Of a stretch of DNA of 64,000 nucleotides, positions 38,684-52,955 are shown piece after piece (within the stretch, counting starts at the first letter, position 1; each line of letters opens with the position of its first letter). The position numbers and the translations under genes are program-made. The DNA comes from Solwaraspora sp. WMMD791 (GTDB lineage: Bacteria; Actinomycetota; Actinomycetes; Mycobacteriales; Micromonosporaceae). The stretch covers positions 1,922,001-1,986,000 of the forward strand of contig NZ_CP120737.1 of the NCBI RefSeq assembly GCF_029581195.1, written 5' to 3'. Below the pieces are notes generated by a model that worked only from the letters and a program-made list of their open reading frames with translations, was not told where the DNA came from and did not search any database.

Positions 38684-39330
38684 GGCGTACCGCCGAGCCG
38701 CAGGGTCTGCCCGGTGACGCCGGCGGCCCGGTCGCTGGCCAGGAAGAGCACGGCGGCGCTGACCTGGTCGGGCCGGTCGGCGCAGCCCGGACCGGCGACC
38801 TGGTTGACCCGCACACCGGCCGGGCCGAACTCGGTGGCGAGGGCACGGGCCAGCCCGGTCAGCCCGGCCTCGGTGACGGCGTCGGGCCCCGGCCCGGCCG
38901 GCGGCACCGCGACGAACACCAGGCCGCCACCGCCGGACGCCGCGACCGCGACCTGCCGGCCGACCCGTCGGGCGGTGGCGAGTGCCCGGTCGGACGCCGC
39001 GCCGGGGTCGTCGTCGTCCGTCGGGTCGGGTTCGTCGGCGGACGCCGCGTCGGGGTCGTCGGACGGCGGGCCGGTGCGACCGGCGGGCATCTCGACGACG
39101 TGGACCAGAAGGTGCGGCCCACGATCGTGGAGTCGACAGTCGGCGACCGCGTCGGCGAGGCCACTGACCGGGTGCGGGTCGACGCCCCGCACCCGGGCAC
39201 CGGCGGCGGCCAGGCCCGCCGCGACGGCCCTGCCGACGGTGGTCCGCGCTGCGGTGAGCAGCACGACGCGCCCCGACAGCGGACCACCGGTGCCGGCGGT
39301 GCCCACGCTCGCCGTTGCCGACCCGGTCAC
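38680..39330 (-). CDS. Degenerate SDR-like protein
   Basis: A 216-residue protein with a recognisable but decayed Rossmann fold: VVLLTAARTTVGRAVAAGLAAAGARVRGVD at the start (the Gly-rich turn lacks the usual glycines), LARALATEFGPAGVRVNQVAGPG and VLFLASDRAAGVTGQTLRLGG near the end. No YxxxK is present and about 30 residues of the central part are replaced by an Asp/Pro-rich stretch (SDDPDAASADEPDPTDDDD). GTG start is inside the end of the cupin gene; overlaps the next SDR by 4 bp. Perhaps a partner subunit of its neighbour. Confidence 0.75.
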   Translation of the reverse strand: MTGSATASVGTAGTGGPLSGRVVLLTAARTTVGRAVAAGLAAAGARVRGVDPHPVSGLADAVADCRLHDRGPHLLVHVVEMPAGRTGPPSDDPDAASADEPDPTDDDDPGAASDRALATARRVGRQVAVAASGGGGLVFVAVPPAGPGPDAVTEAGLTGLARALATEFGPAGVRVNQVAGPGCADRPDQVSAAVLFLASDRAAGVTGQTLRLGGTP

Positions 39331-39800
39331 CGCGGTCCGACCGGCAGACCCGGCCCGACCTGCAGGGTCGGTCCAGCGCCCGGCTGCGGTTCGGTGTCGA
39401 CGTGGCCGAGTTCGGGCCGGGGCGCGAGCGGACAGAGCTGGAAGGTGGCGACCGCCGGGGCGTCGCTGGAGTTCGTGACCCGGTGCGGTACGCCGATCGG
39501 GACGAACACCGCCTGCCCGGCGTCTACCGGCACCTCGGTGCCGTCGAGGCGGACGATCACCGACCCGGAGACGACGTACAGGAACTCCTCGGAGTACGGG
39601 TGGTAGTGCTCGGAGACGTACTCGCCGGGGGCCAGGGTGACCACACCGAGGAACCCGGCGGTGGCGCCGACGGTCGACGGACCGAGCAGTACCCGCAGGT
39701 CGCCGCCGCGGCGGCGGTTCGCCGCGACGTCGGCGGTACCGACCGGCCGGGGCACGACGGGGGGTGACGGTGGACTGGCTGGTCGTTCGACGGCGGACAT
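39327..39800 (-). CDS. Cupin polyketide cyclase-like protein
   Basis: A 157-residue single-domain cupin. Metal ligands sit in GEYVSEHYHPYSEEFLYVVSG (H, H, E) and the second motif FVPIGVPHRVTN. Such small cupins, typified by RemF of resistomycin, act as ring cyclases in aromatic type II polyketide pathways and are part of the pentangular polyphenol set. The ATG has GGGAGGCCACCG upstream, which decides the start. First gene of an operon with two SDR-like genes, divergent from the GT1 at 39987. Confidence 0.82.
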   Translation of the reverse strand: MSAVERPASPPSPPVVPRPVGTADVAANRRRGGDLRVLLGPSTVGATAGFLGVVTLAPGEYVSEHYHPYSEEFLYVVSGSVIVRLDGTEVPVDAGQAVFVPIGVPHRVTNSSDAPAVATFQLCPLAPRPELGHVDTEPQPGAGPTLQVGPGLPVGPR

Positions 39801-39986
39801 CGGTGGCCTCCCTGCTGGGCTGGGCACGTCGACGACACGATCGCCTCCCCCGGTCGCGGCCGGCTCCAGCCCGGCTCCACCCGCAGGTCCGCCCACCGGC
39901 TTCCAGCCCGCTTCGACCGGTTCACCACCGGCACCGCCGACGATCACGCCGAGGCGCCACCGAGAGAACCCACCGAGGAGCCACCG
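39801..39986. promoter_or_regulatory. Divergent cupin / GT1 control region
   Basis: 186 bp between divergent genes; no other gene recognised. AGGAGCC at 39975-39981 is the likely ribosome site for the GT1 gene. Confidence 0.4.
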
Positions 39987-50104: not shown

Positions 50105-51337
50105 TCACACCGCCCTGACCACCAGCGCGGCGTTGAACCCGCCGTAGCCACGGGCCAGTACCACCGCCACCCGCACCCGGGCCGGGCGGGGCACCTCCAG
50201 AACCAGGTCGACGGGGCAGTCCGGGGCGGCCGCGTCGATCCCCACCGCCGGCGGCAGGACCGAGTCCCGGATGGCCAGCACCGCCGCCACCACGTCGAGG
50301 GCGGCCCCGCCGGCGTACATCCGGCCGGTCATCGTCTTCGGCACCGCCACCGGCACCCGGCCGGGCCCGAACACGGCGGCGATCGCCGCAGCCTCCTGCC
50401 GGTCGGCGTCGCGGACCCCGGCGCCGTCGGCGAAGACCACGTCGACATCGGCCGGTCGCTGCCCGGCGTCGGCCAGCGCCGCTTCGATCGCCCGGCGCAG
50501 GCCCGGCTCGCCGGTGCCGGGCCGGGGGTCGAAGGTGGCGGCGCAGCCGGCGATCTCGGCGTACCCACGGGCACCGCGCGAGCGCGCCGAGTCCTCCCGT
50601 TCGACCAGCAGGATCGCCCCGCCTTCGCCGGGCACGTAGCCGGCCGCGTCGGCGGCGAACGGCAGGTAGCTGCGGTGCGGGTCGTCGCCGGTGGCCAGCC
50701 GGCCGCTGGCCAGCTGGCAGACGATGGCGTACGGCGACAGCGGTGCCTCGGCGCCGCCGGAGACCACCAGTCGGCTGCCGGCGCGCAGCAGCCGCCGGGC
50801 GTCGGCGAGGGCGTCCAGTCCGGCGGCCTGTTCGCTGACCAGCACCCCGCACGGGCCCCGGGCGCCGTAGCGGATGGAGAGCTGCCCGGTCGTCGCCGCG
50901 TAGAACCAGGCGATCGACTGGTACGCGCCGACGAACTGCGGCCCCTGCGACCAGAGCCGGGCGATCTCCCGCTGGCCGAACTCGTTGCCGCCGGACGAGC
51001 TGCCGGTGACCACGCCGAACTCGTACTCGGGCAGGGTCGTCGGGTCGATGCCGGCGTCGGCGAACGCCTCGGTCGCGGCGGCCAGCCCGAACGCGGTCCA
51101 CCGGTCGGTCTGCGCGGTCAGCCGGGGCGGCAGGTGCGCGCCGGCGACGAAGTCCTCGGCGACGCCGCCGACCCGTAGCGGGTAGGTGGCACCTACCGAC
51201 GGCAGCGGCCGGATGCCGCTCTTGCCGGCCAGGGTCGCCGACCAGTACGCCGGCACCCCGGTGCCGTTGGGGGCGACGACGCCGATCCCGGTCACCAGTG
51301 CCCGGCCGCCGGGGGTGCCGGGCGTCGGGGCGGTCAC
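50105..51337 (-). CDS. Type II PKS chain length factor (KS-beta)
   Basis: A 410-residue ketosynthase-fold partner lacking the active Cys: at the nucleophile position the sequence is [11 protein letters not shown] with Gln170. The Gln itself is the decarboxylase feature of CLFs. [18 protein letters not shown] begins it. CLF sets polyketide length through the heterodimer channel; predicting the exact length needs comparison of gatekeeper residues. GTG start overlaps the KS-alpha stop by 4 bp. Confidence 0.96.
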
Positions 51338-52641
51338 CGGTGCACCGCCGTCCGGTCGAGCACCACGGCGGTCTGGAATCCGCCGAATCCGCTGCCGACG
51401 CTGAGCACCGCGTCGAGGTGGACGTCGCGTGCGGTGACCGGCACGTAGTCCAGGTCGCAGTCCGGGTCAGGCTCGGTCAGGTTGGCCGTCGGCGGCACCA
51501 CCTGGTGGCGCAGGGCCAGGGCACAGGCCGCGACCTCGATCGAGCCGATCGCGCCGAGCGAGTGACCCACCATCGACTTGATGGAGCTGACCGGCACCTG
51601 GTACGCCCACTGGCCGAGACTGCGTTTGAAGGCCGCCGTCTCGTGTACGTCGTTCTGCCGCGTACCGGAGCCGTGGGCGTTGACGTAGTCGATGTCGGTC
51701 GGGTCGAGCCGGGCCCCGGCCAGCGCGACGCGGATCGCGTCGGCCATCTCCCGGCCGTCGGGGCGCAGACCGGTCATGTGGTACGCGTTGGCCCGGCGGG
51801 CGAACCCGGCGACCCGGCAGTAGCCGGCGGCACCGCGTCGGCGGGCGTGGCCGGCCTCCTCGATGACGAACACGGCCGCCCCTTCACCGAGGACGAACCC
51901 GTCGCGTCGCCGGTCGAAGGGGCGGCTGGCGTGCCCGGGATCGGCGTTGTTGGCCGAGGTGGCCCGGATGGTGTCGAAGCAGGCCACGGTGATCGGTGAG
52001 ATCGGTGCGTCGGACGCACCGGCCACCACCACGTCGGCGCTGCCCTCGACGATCAGCGCGGCGGCGTGCCCGACGGCGTCCAGACCGGAGGTGCAGCCGG
52101 TGGAAATCAGCGAGACCGGCCCCTGCGCGCCGCACTGCCAGGCGACCTCGGCGGCGATGGAGCTGGGAACGAGGTAGTCGTAGAGGTCCGCGCCGGCCGC
52201 CGTGTGGTCGACCAGCCAGTCCCGGCCGTGGTTGCTGACCGCCTTGTACTGCTCCTCCAGCCGGATCGTGCAGCCGACCGCCCCGCCGATGACGGTGCCG
52301 AGGCGGTACGGGTCGGTGGCGGCGAAGTCGAGTCCACTGTCGCGCATCGCCTCGGCCGCCGCGACCAGCGCGAACTGGGTGGTGCGGTCCAGCCGCCGGG
52401 CCTGTTCGGGGCTCAGCCCGGCGGCGACCGGGTCGAAGTCGCACTCGGCGGCGATGCGGGACCGGAATCCCTGCGGGTCGAACAGGGTGATCGGGCCGGT
52501 GGCGCTGCGGCCGGCGGTGAGCAGATCCCAGAAGGCCGGTACGCCGACGCCGCCCGGTGCCACCACCCCGATCCCGGTTACGACCGCGGTCCGCGGCGTG
52601 TCGCCGGCCACCGCTGCGGTCCGGGCCGCGTCGCCGGTCAC
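51334..52641 (-). CDS. Type II PKS ketosynthase alpha
   Basis: A 435-residue condensing enzyme. Nucleophile C183 lies in [32 protein letters not shown] and [13 protein letters not shown] supply the two catalytic His. [16 protein letters not shown] is the usual N-terminus, preceded by an unusual Ala/Thr-rich head of 16 residues. I chose the GTG at 52641 because it overlaps the cyclase stop (GTGA) and no better start lies upstream; the longer frame is inside the cyclase gene. Decarboxylative Claisen condensation of malonyl-ACP units with the CLF. Confidence 0.95.
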
Positions 52642-52955
52642 CGCCGCCACCGGTAGAACTCGGTGGCCATCGCGTCCGCCGGGCCGCGCCAGCCCGGGTC
52701 GTACGCGCTGATGTGCGCCGCCAACCGGTCGCTGACCTCGGTGAACAGTGGATGGTCGCGGTGCCGGGCCAGCCCTGGACCCAGGTCCTGATCGGAGTCG
52801 ATCAGGTGGAAGTACAGGTCGTGGAAGGTGAACAGGCTGCGCGAGCGGACCCCGAGCAGGTGCGGCAGTTCGGTGCGGTCCGACTCGCCGAACACCTCGG
52901 CGACCCGGTCGGCGTGCCCCGGCTGCAGCCGCGCGACGATCAAGGTCCGGTGCAT
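52638..52955 (-). CDS. TcmI-type polyketide cyclase
   Basis: A 105-residue cyclase (Cyclase_polyket). [58 protein letters not shown] sequence is diagnostic; the last residues EFYRWRR are also typical. It closes a late ring (the second or fourth) of multi-ring aromatic polyketides. First gene of the PKS operon. The ATG at 52955 has GGAGGGACC upstream; an ATG 18 bp earlier is less supported. Confidence 0.94.

Follow-up and report, generated by a model that had tools for sequence, protein, structure and literature searches.

A lineage-specific island in Solwaraspora sp. WMMD791 with a pentangular-type polyketide core and genes for a dikinase and a secreted phosphatase-type protein

We analyzed a stretch of 64,000 nucleotides from Solwaraspora sp. 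WMMD791 (hereafter the window; G000:C1:1922001-1986000 of a complete genome of 6.93 Mb), in which a lineage-specific island next to a tRNA-Leu gene carries the core genes of a type II polyketide synthase (PKS). An earlier note on this DNA had described an operon for a TcmI cyclase, KS-alpha, CLF, acyl carrier protein, SRPBCC aromatase, DUF1772 protein, SDR ketoreductase and two ABM monooxygenases, with a cupin cyclase beyond its end. The core genes and a second Anthrone_oxy gene are as follows.

52638-52958, minus strand: TcmI-type cyclase (PF04673, E 4.6e-42; Cyclase_polyket match listed at 52638-52973)
51334-52641, minus strand: ketosynthase alpha (KS-alpha), C183 (ketoacyl-synt match, residue check)
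50105-51337, minus strand: chain length factor (CLF, KS-beta), Q170 (ketoacyl-synt match, residue check)
49796-50059, minus strand: PKS acyl carrier protein (ACP; PF00550)
49281-49799, minus strand: monodomain TcmN-type aromatase/cyclase (SRPBCC; PF03364, Polyketide_cyc)
48814-49320, minus strand: first Anthrone_oxy (DUF1772-type) protein (PF08592, within the 48814-49521 frame)
48035-48766, minus strand: ketoreductase (SDR; PF13561), adjoining the ABM pair
47665-48033, minus strand: ABM protein 1 (PF03992)
47354-47668, minus strand: ABM protein 2 (PF03992)
39327-39788, minus strand: cupin (TcmJ-type) cyclase (PF07883, within the 39327-40073 frame)
25177-25641, minus strand: second Anthrone_oxy (DUF1772-type) protein (PF08592)

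All nine members of the described operon are present, closely spaced and co-directional (52958-47354, minus strand), the named core parts score over the Pfam gathering cut-offs, and KS-alpha and CLF match ketoacyl-synt in a search of their own genome. Numbering KS-alpha from a GTG start at 52641 puts its cysteine (GCTSGLD) at 183, and the glutamine of CLF falls at 170, both as had been stated. The core thus has the KS-alpha with catalytic cysteine, the CLF with glutamine and the ACP of the pentangular class. The cupin gene had been placed 3.8 kb past the operon end, which holds only for its far edge: the minus-strand run goes on through genes for an epimerase-type protein, a methyltransferase, a second epimerase-type protein and a family 2 glycosyltransferase (GT2) to 43105, and the near edge lies about 3.3 kb from the end of this run. 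Beyond what had been listed, the island holds the second Anthrone_oxy gene, a third cytochrome P450 gene, two GT2 genes and one GT8-like gene.

Criteria that separate pentangular from tetracenomycin clusters are given by Ogasawara et al. 2015 (PMC4383371). Judged by Pfam families, all of the cyclases that the passages of this paper on pentangular clusters name are encoded in the window (TcmI-type, TcmJ-type cupin and monodomain TcmN-type). The same holds for the pair of ABM genes, which adjoin each other on the minus strand (47354-47668 and 47665-48033). An SDR ketoreductase is present as well, a candidate for the PdmG/BenL-type C-6 ketoreductase of the class, and the gene combination agrees with the pentangular polyphenol signature proposed for it. 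The expectation of a highly glycosylated product is plausible, with three EryCIII-like GT1 enzymes at 32957-34120, 39987-41336 and 55590-56825, two GT2 genes and one GT8-like gene.

The borders of the region were set by comparison with the genus.

19998-20073, plus strand: tRNA-Leu(CAA) (ARAGORN), whose 3' end is the island start
20074-63933, both strands: lineage-specific island, right end between 63634 and 63933, present in two and absent from five of the seven genomes of the genus

All seven genomes have the HtpX gene, which lies to the right of the window, and a UrtA-like gene, which lies to the left of the cluster; the distance between the two is 45.5-45.6 kb in the window genome and the congener G005, and 1.8-6.3 kb in the remaining five. 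The left flank alignment of the five island-free genomes ends at 20073 (four genomes) or 20072 (one) and picks up again at 63635 (G002), 63640 (G006), 63908 (G004) or 63934 (G001 and G003). ARAGORN found the same tRNA-Leu at this border in all five and in G005. Because the flank alignments stop where ARAGORN places the tRNA, we read the region as one island of 43.6-43.9 kb, shared by the window genome and G005 (2/7), that begins at the tRNA 3' end. It contains 39 genes by our own gene calls and has a GC content of 73.9%, compared with 69.8% in the left flank and 71.3% in the right. The ratio of nonsynonymous to synonymous substitution rates (dN/dS) against G005 is below 1 for 39/39 genes (range 0.04-0.69, alignable codons), and these are therefore real genes and not chance open reading frames. 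Since the island was gained or lost as a unit, the genes described below for a fatty acyl-AMP ligase-like protein (FAAL), a second ACP (ACP2), the GT2 enzymes, PIG-L, a GlmU-like protein, a PHP protein and a dikinase belong to the cluster; this settles that they came or went together with the PKS genes. An integrated element with att repeats was considered and rejected: the tRNA 3' end occurs in a single copy in the window with no good match up to 67 kb, and no integrase is among the Pfam matches of the island genes.

To place the core, 74 type II PKS loci were compared, 30 from the same genome or its relatives and 44 named ones, some spanning only a few kb. The named loci came from the best 80 of the scan, of which 45 were used (44 as named rows, L017 as G037); the 35 left out were nearly all from other phyla, with 39-46% KS identity. 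We defined the full set as a match to all six of TcmI, SRPBCC, cupin, ABM1, ABM2 and ketoreductase. It was found in 17/74 loci, 15/30 from the genome and relatives and 2/44 named loci, counts that are not frequencies in nature because the named loci are those among the matches listed and some cover only a few kb. The ketoreductase is 100% identical in G005 and 55-70% in the other full-set clusters. The DUF1772 gene was dropped as an odd gene, having a match in 16 of the 17.

The KS-alpha+CLF tree has 67 rows and agrees with a quick tree of 69 rows. The quick tree left out the five rows without an extracted CLF (G200, G088, G169, L030 and L053), and the 67-row tree also L009 (a duplicate of G217) and L046 (odd composition); four KS rows (G050, G287, G264 and G101) are fragments of 243-319 residues. 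The window, G005, G107, G063, G024 and G038 form one clade (bootstrap 100, SH-aLRT 99), in which G107, G024, G038 and G063 belong to the same family but other genera, and the clade partners carry the same core gene set. Grouping of the KS-alpha with anthracycline or spore-pigment clades, which the earlier note had named as evidence to the contrary, was not seen: the window clade stands apart from the S. coeruleorubidus/S. ruber rows, and also from a clade of 17-18 rows made up of Streptomyces and kin. The Streptomyces clade has no ketoreductase match and weak or no ABM matches, and is spore-pigment-like by gene content, its product labels being unconfirmed. The tree rows include no recognised characterised pentangular system, so that nearness to pradimicin, benastatin and others lies outside the scope of the tree. 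One result speaks against our interpretation: a single clade of the 16 full-set rows in the tree (17 clusters by gene content; the label was tested after the quick tree had been seen) was rejected with a p-AU of 0.0008. The full gene set is therefore no perfect marker of descent. Elsewhere in the window genome, a second type II PKS (L097, G000:C1:3424327-3426368) has a KS-alpha with 64% identity to that of the window, which groups with Micromonospora rows that have no ketoreductase match.

Taken together, the genes for KS-alpha, CLF and ACP, for three cyclases and a ketoreductase and for the ABM pair are all there and evolve under selection. The island as a whole is probably a single biosynthetic cluster, whose predicted product is a glycosylated pentangular polyphenol. 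By the precedents named here, KS-alpha, CLF and ACP would build a poly-beta-ketone, of which the SRPBCC protein would close and aromatise the first rings and the cupin and TcmI-type cyclases the later ones. The ketoreductase would reduce C-6, the ABM and Anthrone_oxy proteins would set the quinone pattern, the P450s and methyltransferases would oxidise and methylate, and GT1a-c, possibly also GT2a, GT2b and the GT8-like enzyme, would attach sugars. The remaining genes of the island are as follows.

20306-21688, plus strand: glycosyltransferase GT2a (PF00535, E 1.9e-11; 43% to GT2b)
21685-22524, plus strand: GT8-like/Npun_R2821 family protein (no Pfam match; NCBIfam NF045582 137 bits, below the cut-off of 250)
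22544-22834, plus strand: ACP2, second acyl carrier protein (PF00550)
22847-23899, plus strand: aldo/keto reductase (PF00248)
24127-25161, minus strand: O-methyltransferase (PF00891; 57-59% in G024, G038 and G063)
25676-26665, minus strand: SARP regulator (PF03704, PF00486)
27898-29630, plus strand: histidine kinase and LuxR-type response regulator (Pfam)
29832-30536, plus strand: PIG-L deacetylase (PF02585; HPDD and HQDH motifs present)
30527-31810, plus strand: GlmU-like protein without the N-terminal nucleotide-binding part (NCBIfam GlmU match only at 166-422)
31769-32791, minus strand: LLM-class F420-type oxidoreductase (65-68% in G107, G024, G038 and G063)
32957-34120, plus strand: glycosyltransferase GT1a (PF21036/PF06722)
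34151-37924, minus strand: fused double ABC exporter (ABC_tran and ABC_membrane, two stretches each; 44% in G024, G038 and G063)
37940-39330, minus strand: two SDR proteins, SDR2 and SDR3 (Pfam; SDR3 with the weakest constraint, dN/dS 0.69)
39987-41336, plus strand: glycosyltransferase GT1b (EryCIII-like)
41372-43027, plus strand: PHP metallohydrolase with a twin-arginine translocation (Tat)-type signal, SRRGFLRG (PF02811, 31.8 bits over 26.4)
43105-44460, minus strand: glycosyltransferase GT2b (PF00535)
44457-45533, minus strand: NDP-sugar epimerase-type SDR, Epi1 (PF01370; 67% in G107)
45557-46357, minus strand: SAM methyltransferase (PF13649; 57% in G107)
46347-47342, minus strand: second sugar epimerase-type SDR, Epi2 (PF01370)
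53162-55593, plus strand: two P450s, P450a and P450b (same order with GT1c in G024, G038 and G063)
55590-56825, plus strand: glycosyltransferase GT1c (EryCIII-like)
56841-59507, plus strand: phosphoenolpyruvate (PEP)-synthase/rifampin phosphotransferase (RPH)-like dikinase, PEPS, 888 residues (PF01326, PPDK_N; PF00391, PEP-utilizers)
59503-60433, plus strand: amidohydrolase-2 (PF04909), adjoining PEPS also in G024, G038 and G063
60423-61577, minus strand: third P450 (PF00067, 48.5 bits over 22.8)
61788-63557, plus strand: FAAL (PF00501 and PF23024)

GT2b has repeated APAAPVS-like units near its C-terminus, and 10 of its positions are unaligned with the congener. Two observations concern the island site. 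Between the tRNA-Leu and HtpX genes, G004 has another insert, about 4.5 kb long (L159:4324-8836), which by eye encodes a NUDIX-type protein, two proteins with a common NISNSFNPV motif and a nucleosidase-like domain; since a different insert sits at the same site, the interval may be an insertion hotspot. Past HtpX, to the right of the window (L142:5416-15879), an aromatic amino acid lyase/aminomutase-family gene (PF00221) is followed, by eye, by flavin-dependent, adenylation, carrier and condensation-type genes, perhaps a separate aromatic beta-amino acid pathway. These genes were rejected as cluster members, as they lie outside the island border, and G005 showed no alignment of at least 400 bases to them (24.5 kb of G005 compared).

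The clusters of G107, G024, G038 and G063 share with the window not only the core but also the LLM/GT1a pair, a GT1c-type gene and PEPS (4/4). In all of them the LLM oxidoreductase gene is divergent from the GT1a-type gene (43-47%), as in the window. G024, G038 and G063 also share the amidohydrolase (58-61%), which neighbours PEPS as in the window, the consecutive P450a (54-55%), P450b (69%) and GT1c (53-56%) genes, the ABC exporter and the O-methyltransferase. In G038 and G063 the PEPS part and the KS part are on different contigs; this suggests assembly breaks, because G024 has both parts on one contig and pieces of a single gene stand at the ends of the two G063 stretches. Unlike the window, where Pfam found none on the island, all four carry an NDP-hexose 2,3-dehydratase gene, and G024, G038 and G063 carry nonribosomal peptide synthetase (NRPS) genes and a Y_phosphatase3 gene. 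On the other hand, the compared stretches of the four showed no PHP, GT2a/b, GT8-like protein, PIG-L, GlmU-like protein or stand-alone ACP2. Among the 74 loci, only the window and G005 gave matches to PHP and GT2b, and among the 17 cluster regions only these two gave matches to GT2a, the GT8-like protein and ACP2; a partial 41% ACP2 match in G024 falls inside its larger A-KR-T protein. PIG-L (52%) and GlmU-like (46%) genes stand side by side in G088, adjoining another full-set core.

Several of these clusters have features of their own. That of G024 (L197:4304-10371, L205:653-5316) encodes NRPS-type proteins, an A-KR-T-like protein and an arylamine N-acetyltransferase-family protein; judging from these genes, an amino acid or hydroxy acid may be part of the sister products. 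In G063 (L208, L201, L184, L202 and L203) the contig with the type II core has long runs of weak ketosynthase matches (23-29%) on either side of it, probably type I PKS genes. In G307 (L190:11111-12937, L191:4209-6053) PEPS lies close behind the ABM genes in a pentangular-type cluster with two asparagine-synthase-type genes, one by Pfam and the other by eye. Genes of this type are associated with lactam-bearing polycyclic xanthones.

PEPS has the parts of the dikinase mechanism, an ATP-grasp domain and a swivel domain with the catalytic histidine. The swivel histidine and the ATP-grasp Arg, Glu, Gln and Arg, which we take to have their familiar roles, are kept in 5/5 aligned copies (window, G005, G024, G107 and G307). 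The gene is present in 6/6 genomes of the window's KS/CLF clade and in 7/17 full-set clusters (the six and G307), the other ten being weak negatives since the flanks compared were unequal. Its best PDB matches (5fbs, 5hv2 and 5hv1) are listed as 'Phosphoenolpyruvate synthase', and a passage of PMC12167813 names 5FBS, 5FBT and 5HV1 as rifampin phosphotransferase. Family relatives phosphorylate phenols in catabolism (HpeHI, CreHI and PpsAB, in the passages of PMC12167813 on these enzymes) or rifampin (PMC4844700). By inference from such relatives, a polyphenol would be a natural kind of substrate for PEPS.

Genes of a second kind have a bearing on this. The His/Glu/Asp motifs of the PHP protein are, we presume, typical of PHP enzymes. 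In G024 the O-methyltransferase gene is followed after 20 bases by one for a tyrosine-phosphatase-family protein (Y_phosphatase3; PF13350, E 2.5e-39) with a Tat-type signal, of which G038 (99%) and G063 (84%) have full-length copies. Thus two unrelated secreted phosphatase-type families occur in the PEPS-bearing clusters of one clade, PHP in the window and G005 and Y_phosphatase3 in G024, G038 and G063. A Tat scan of 12 regions gave seven matches; its negatives mean little because it missed both the window PHP gene and the G063 phosphatase. Its matches also include one small, unannotated protein with this kind of signal from the G287 locus, which has no PEPS. For self-resistance, the relevant passages of a review (PMC9854587) describe prodrugs from which membrane-bound enzymes take off a phosphate or another group, others activated by secreted proteins, and the kinase AcbK, which protects the acarbose producer.

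Given the substrates of PEPS relatives, the two secreted phosphatase-type genes and these precedents, a phospho-prodrug cycle is possible, though more speculative than the cluster itself. In this cycle PEPS would phosphorylate a product hydroxyl inside the cell; the ABC protein would export the phosphorylated product, and the Tat-type PHP metallohydrolase (Y_phosphatase3 in the sister clusters) would remove the phosphate outside. Combined with a product that in the window lineage is also an acylated amino-sugar glycoside, we hold this model only tentatively and rate it as rather unlikely in its entirety. Several observations count against it. The nearest NCBIfam models of PEPS (PEP synthase, PigC, RedH and Rph) all score far under their cut-offs, that for the Rph equivalog NF041857 being 231.9 bits against 999, and PEPS evolves fast (dN/dS 0.49 between the window and G005, with 53 positions unaligned). 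The PHP protein scores 68.6 bits against a cut-off of 80 for CehA/McbA (NF038032), has no PDB match by sequence, gave a single-sequence AlphaFold model with a mean pLDDT of 35 that was not used, and is absent from relatives outside G005. In addition, neither the insensitive Tat scan nor tblastn with PHP and Y_phosphatase3 turned up a secreted phosphatase on the contigs of G107 (31.7 kb) and G307 (47.6 kb).

The strongest competitor, which we rate at somewhat below an even chance, is that the dikinase is biosynthetic, phosphorylating a hydroxyl as a leaving group for deoxygenation or dehydration or acting as a ligase like PigC and RedH, with an unrelated role for PHP. Indeed, these two prodigiosin ligases are among its three best NCBIfam matches, it adjoins a tailoring-type neighbour, the amidohydrolase, in the window, G024, G038 and G063, and G307 has PEPS without a visible secreted phosphatase. 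However, a purely biosynthetic role leaves the secreted phosphatase-type genes of two unrelated families in the clade unexplained.

The acyl part of the phospho-prodrug model was weighed in the same way. PIG-L has PDB matches that include N-acetyl-alpha-D-glucosaminyl L-malate deacetylase 1. The GlmU-like protein aligns to solved bifunctional GlmU from its residue 81 on, lacking the uridylyltransferase N-terminal domain, and scores under the NCBIfam GlmU cut-offs. FAAL has an AMP-binding domain, a DIP2-like C-terminal domain and closeness to solved FAALs, features by which it would be a fatty acyl-AMP ligase; its PDB matches include FadD32, FadD23, FadD28 and a 'Fatty Acyl-Adenylate Ligase', with chains named 'Polyketide synthase' scoring highest, and it scores under the named NCBIfam cut-offs (FadD32 and others). 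Judged by sequence, the genes for PIG-L, the GlmU-like protein, FAAL and ACP suggest an amino sugar with an acyl group. The first two would remodel the amino sugar, and FAAL would load an acyl chain on ACP2 for transfer to it, both being among the more speculative steps. Two points tell against this. Of the positions we take to be in the GlmU active site, the histidine in VPHL is kept, the tyrosine in NYDG is Phe and the serine in RTGSD is Ala; and no dedicated acyltransferase for the FAAL/ACP2 pair is apparent on the island.

Alternatively, FAAL and ACP2 could provide the type II PKS with a starter unit other than acetate, with no acyl group on a sugar. In the passages of PMC4383371 on starter units, pentangular, tetracenomycin or related clusters with non-acetate starters hold a type III ketosynthase (KSIII) or a stand-alone adenylation domain, and FAAL is a stand-alone enzyme of the adenylation kind. 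We consider this unlikely but worth keeping in view: a Pfam scan of the island genes showed no KSIII, the genes for FAAL and ACP2 stand one at each end of the island and apart from the PKS core, and outside G005 the best FAAL matches in the 17 cluster regions are weak (39% in G088, 27-29% in G024 and G287), none of them with ACP2.

That the island is the counterpart of a characterised cluster, such as a MIBiG entry, appears improbable. Related clusters are present in four genomes of other genera, which would favour it, but among the matches listed from open-licence PubMed Central papers there was no type II PKS or pentangular cluster with PEP synthase, dikinase, RPH or phosphotransferase genes, nor one with PIG-L, fatty acyl or AMP ligase genes. 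Plasmid records gave 110 matches with a best identity of 70.6% and no product names among the best 30 of the 110. A term search of PMC10868606 gave nothing on clusters of this kind. The core is ordinary for its class, and the gene combination did not turn up among the papers listed.

The island offers a precisely bounded cluster (20074 to about 63.9 kb), ready for cloning, and a clade of relatives to compare it with. If the phosphorylation cycle is real, aromatic polyketide producers would be using an enzyme family known from rifampin resistance and phenol catabolism as a module for self-protection, and dikinases of this type close to type II PKS genes would become a handle for genome mining. 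If the acylated amino sugar is real, the product would be a lipid-tailed pentangular glycoside, a combination likewise not found among the literature matches listed.

Compared with known systems, a tetracenomycin-type core is very improbable: the passages of PMC4383371 on tetracenomycin clusters give them the same three cyclases but no ketoreductase and a single, more distant ABM homologue, whereas the window has a ketoreductase and adjacent ABM genes, and the S. glaucescens row (cluster identity unconfirmed) falls outside its KS/CLF clade; this reading and a spore-pigment-type one were rejected on gene content and tree. Ruskamycin, a glycosylated griseorhodin in the passages of PMC13200261 that describe it, resembles the predicted product in having a sugar on a pentangular backbone; a difference is that no flavoprotein monooxygenase of the GrhO5/GrhO6 kind is among the Pfam matches of the island. 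PEPS shares the ATP-grasp domain, histidine swivel domain and conserved motifs with rifampin phosphotransferase and the HpeHI/PpsAB phenol dikinases; unlike rifampin phosphotransferase it is far below the Rph cut-off, matches the RPH sequence weakly in the middle domain and sits in a type II PKS cluster. By gene content the core resembles the frankiamicin/pradimicin cassette (fkm, pdm), which, as laid out in PMC4383371, has TcmN-, TcmJ- and TcmI-type cyclases, KS/CLF/ACP, a ketoreductase and two adjacent ABM genes. The window is set apart from fkm and pdm by its P450s, six glycosyltransferase-type genes, dikinase, PHP, FAAL/ACP2 and PIG-L.

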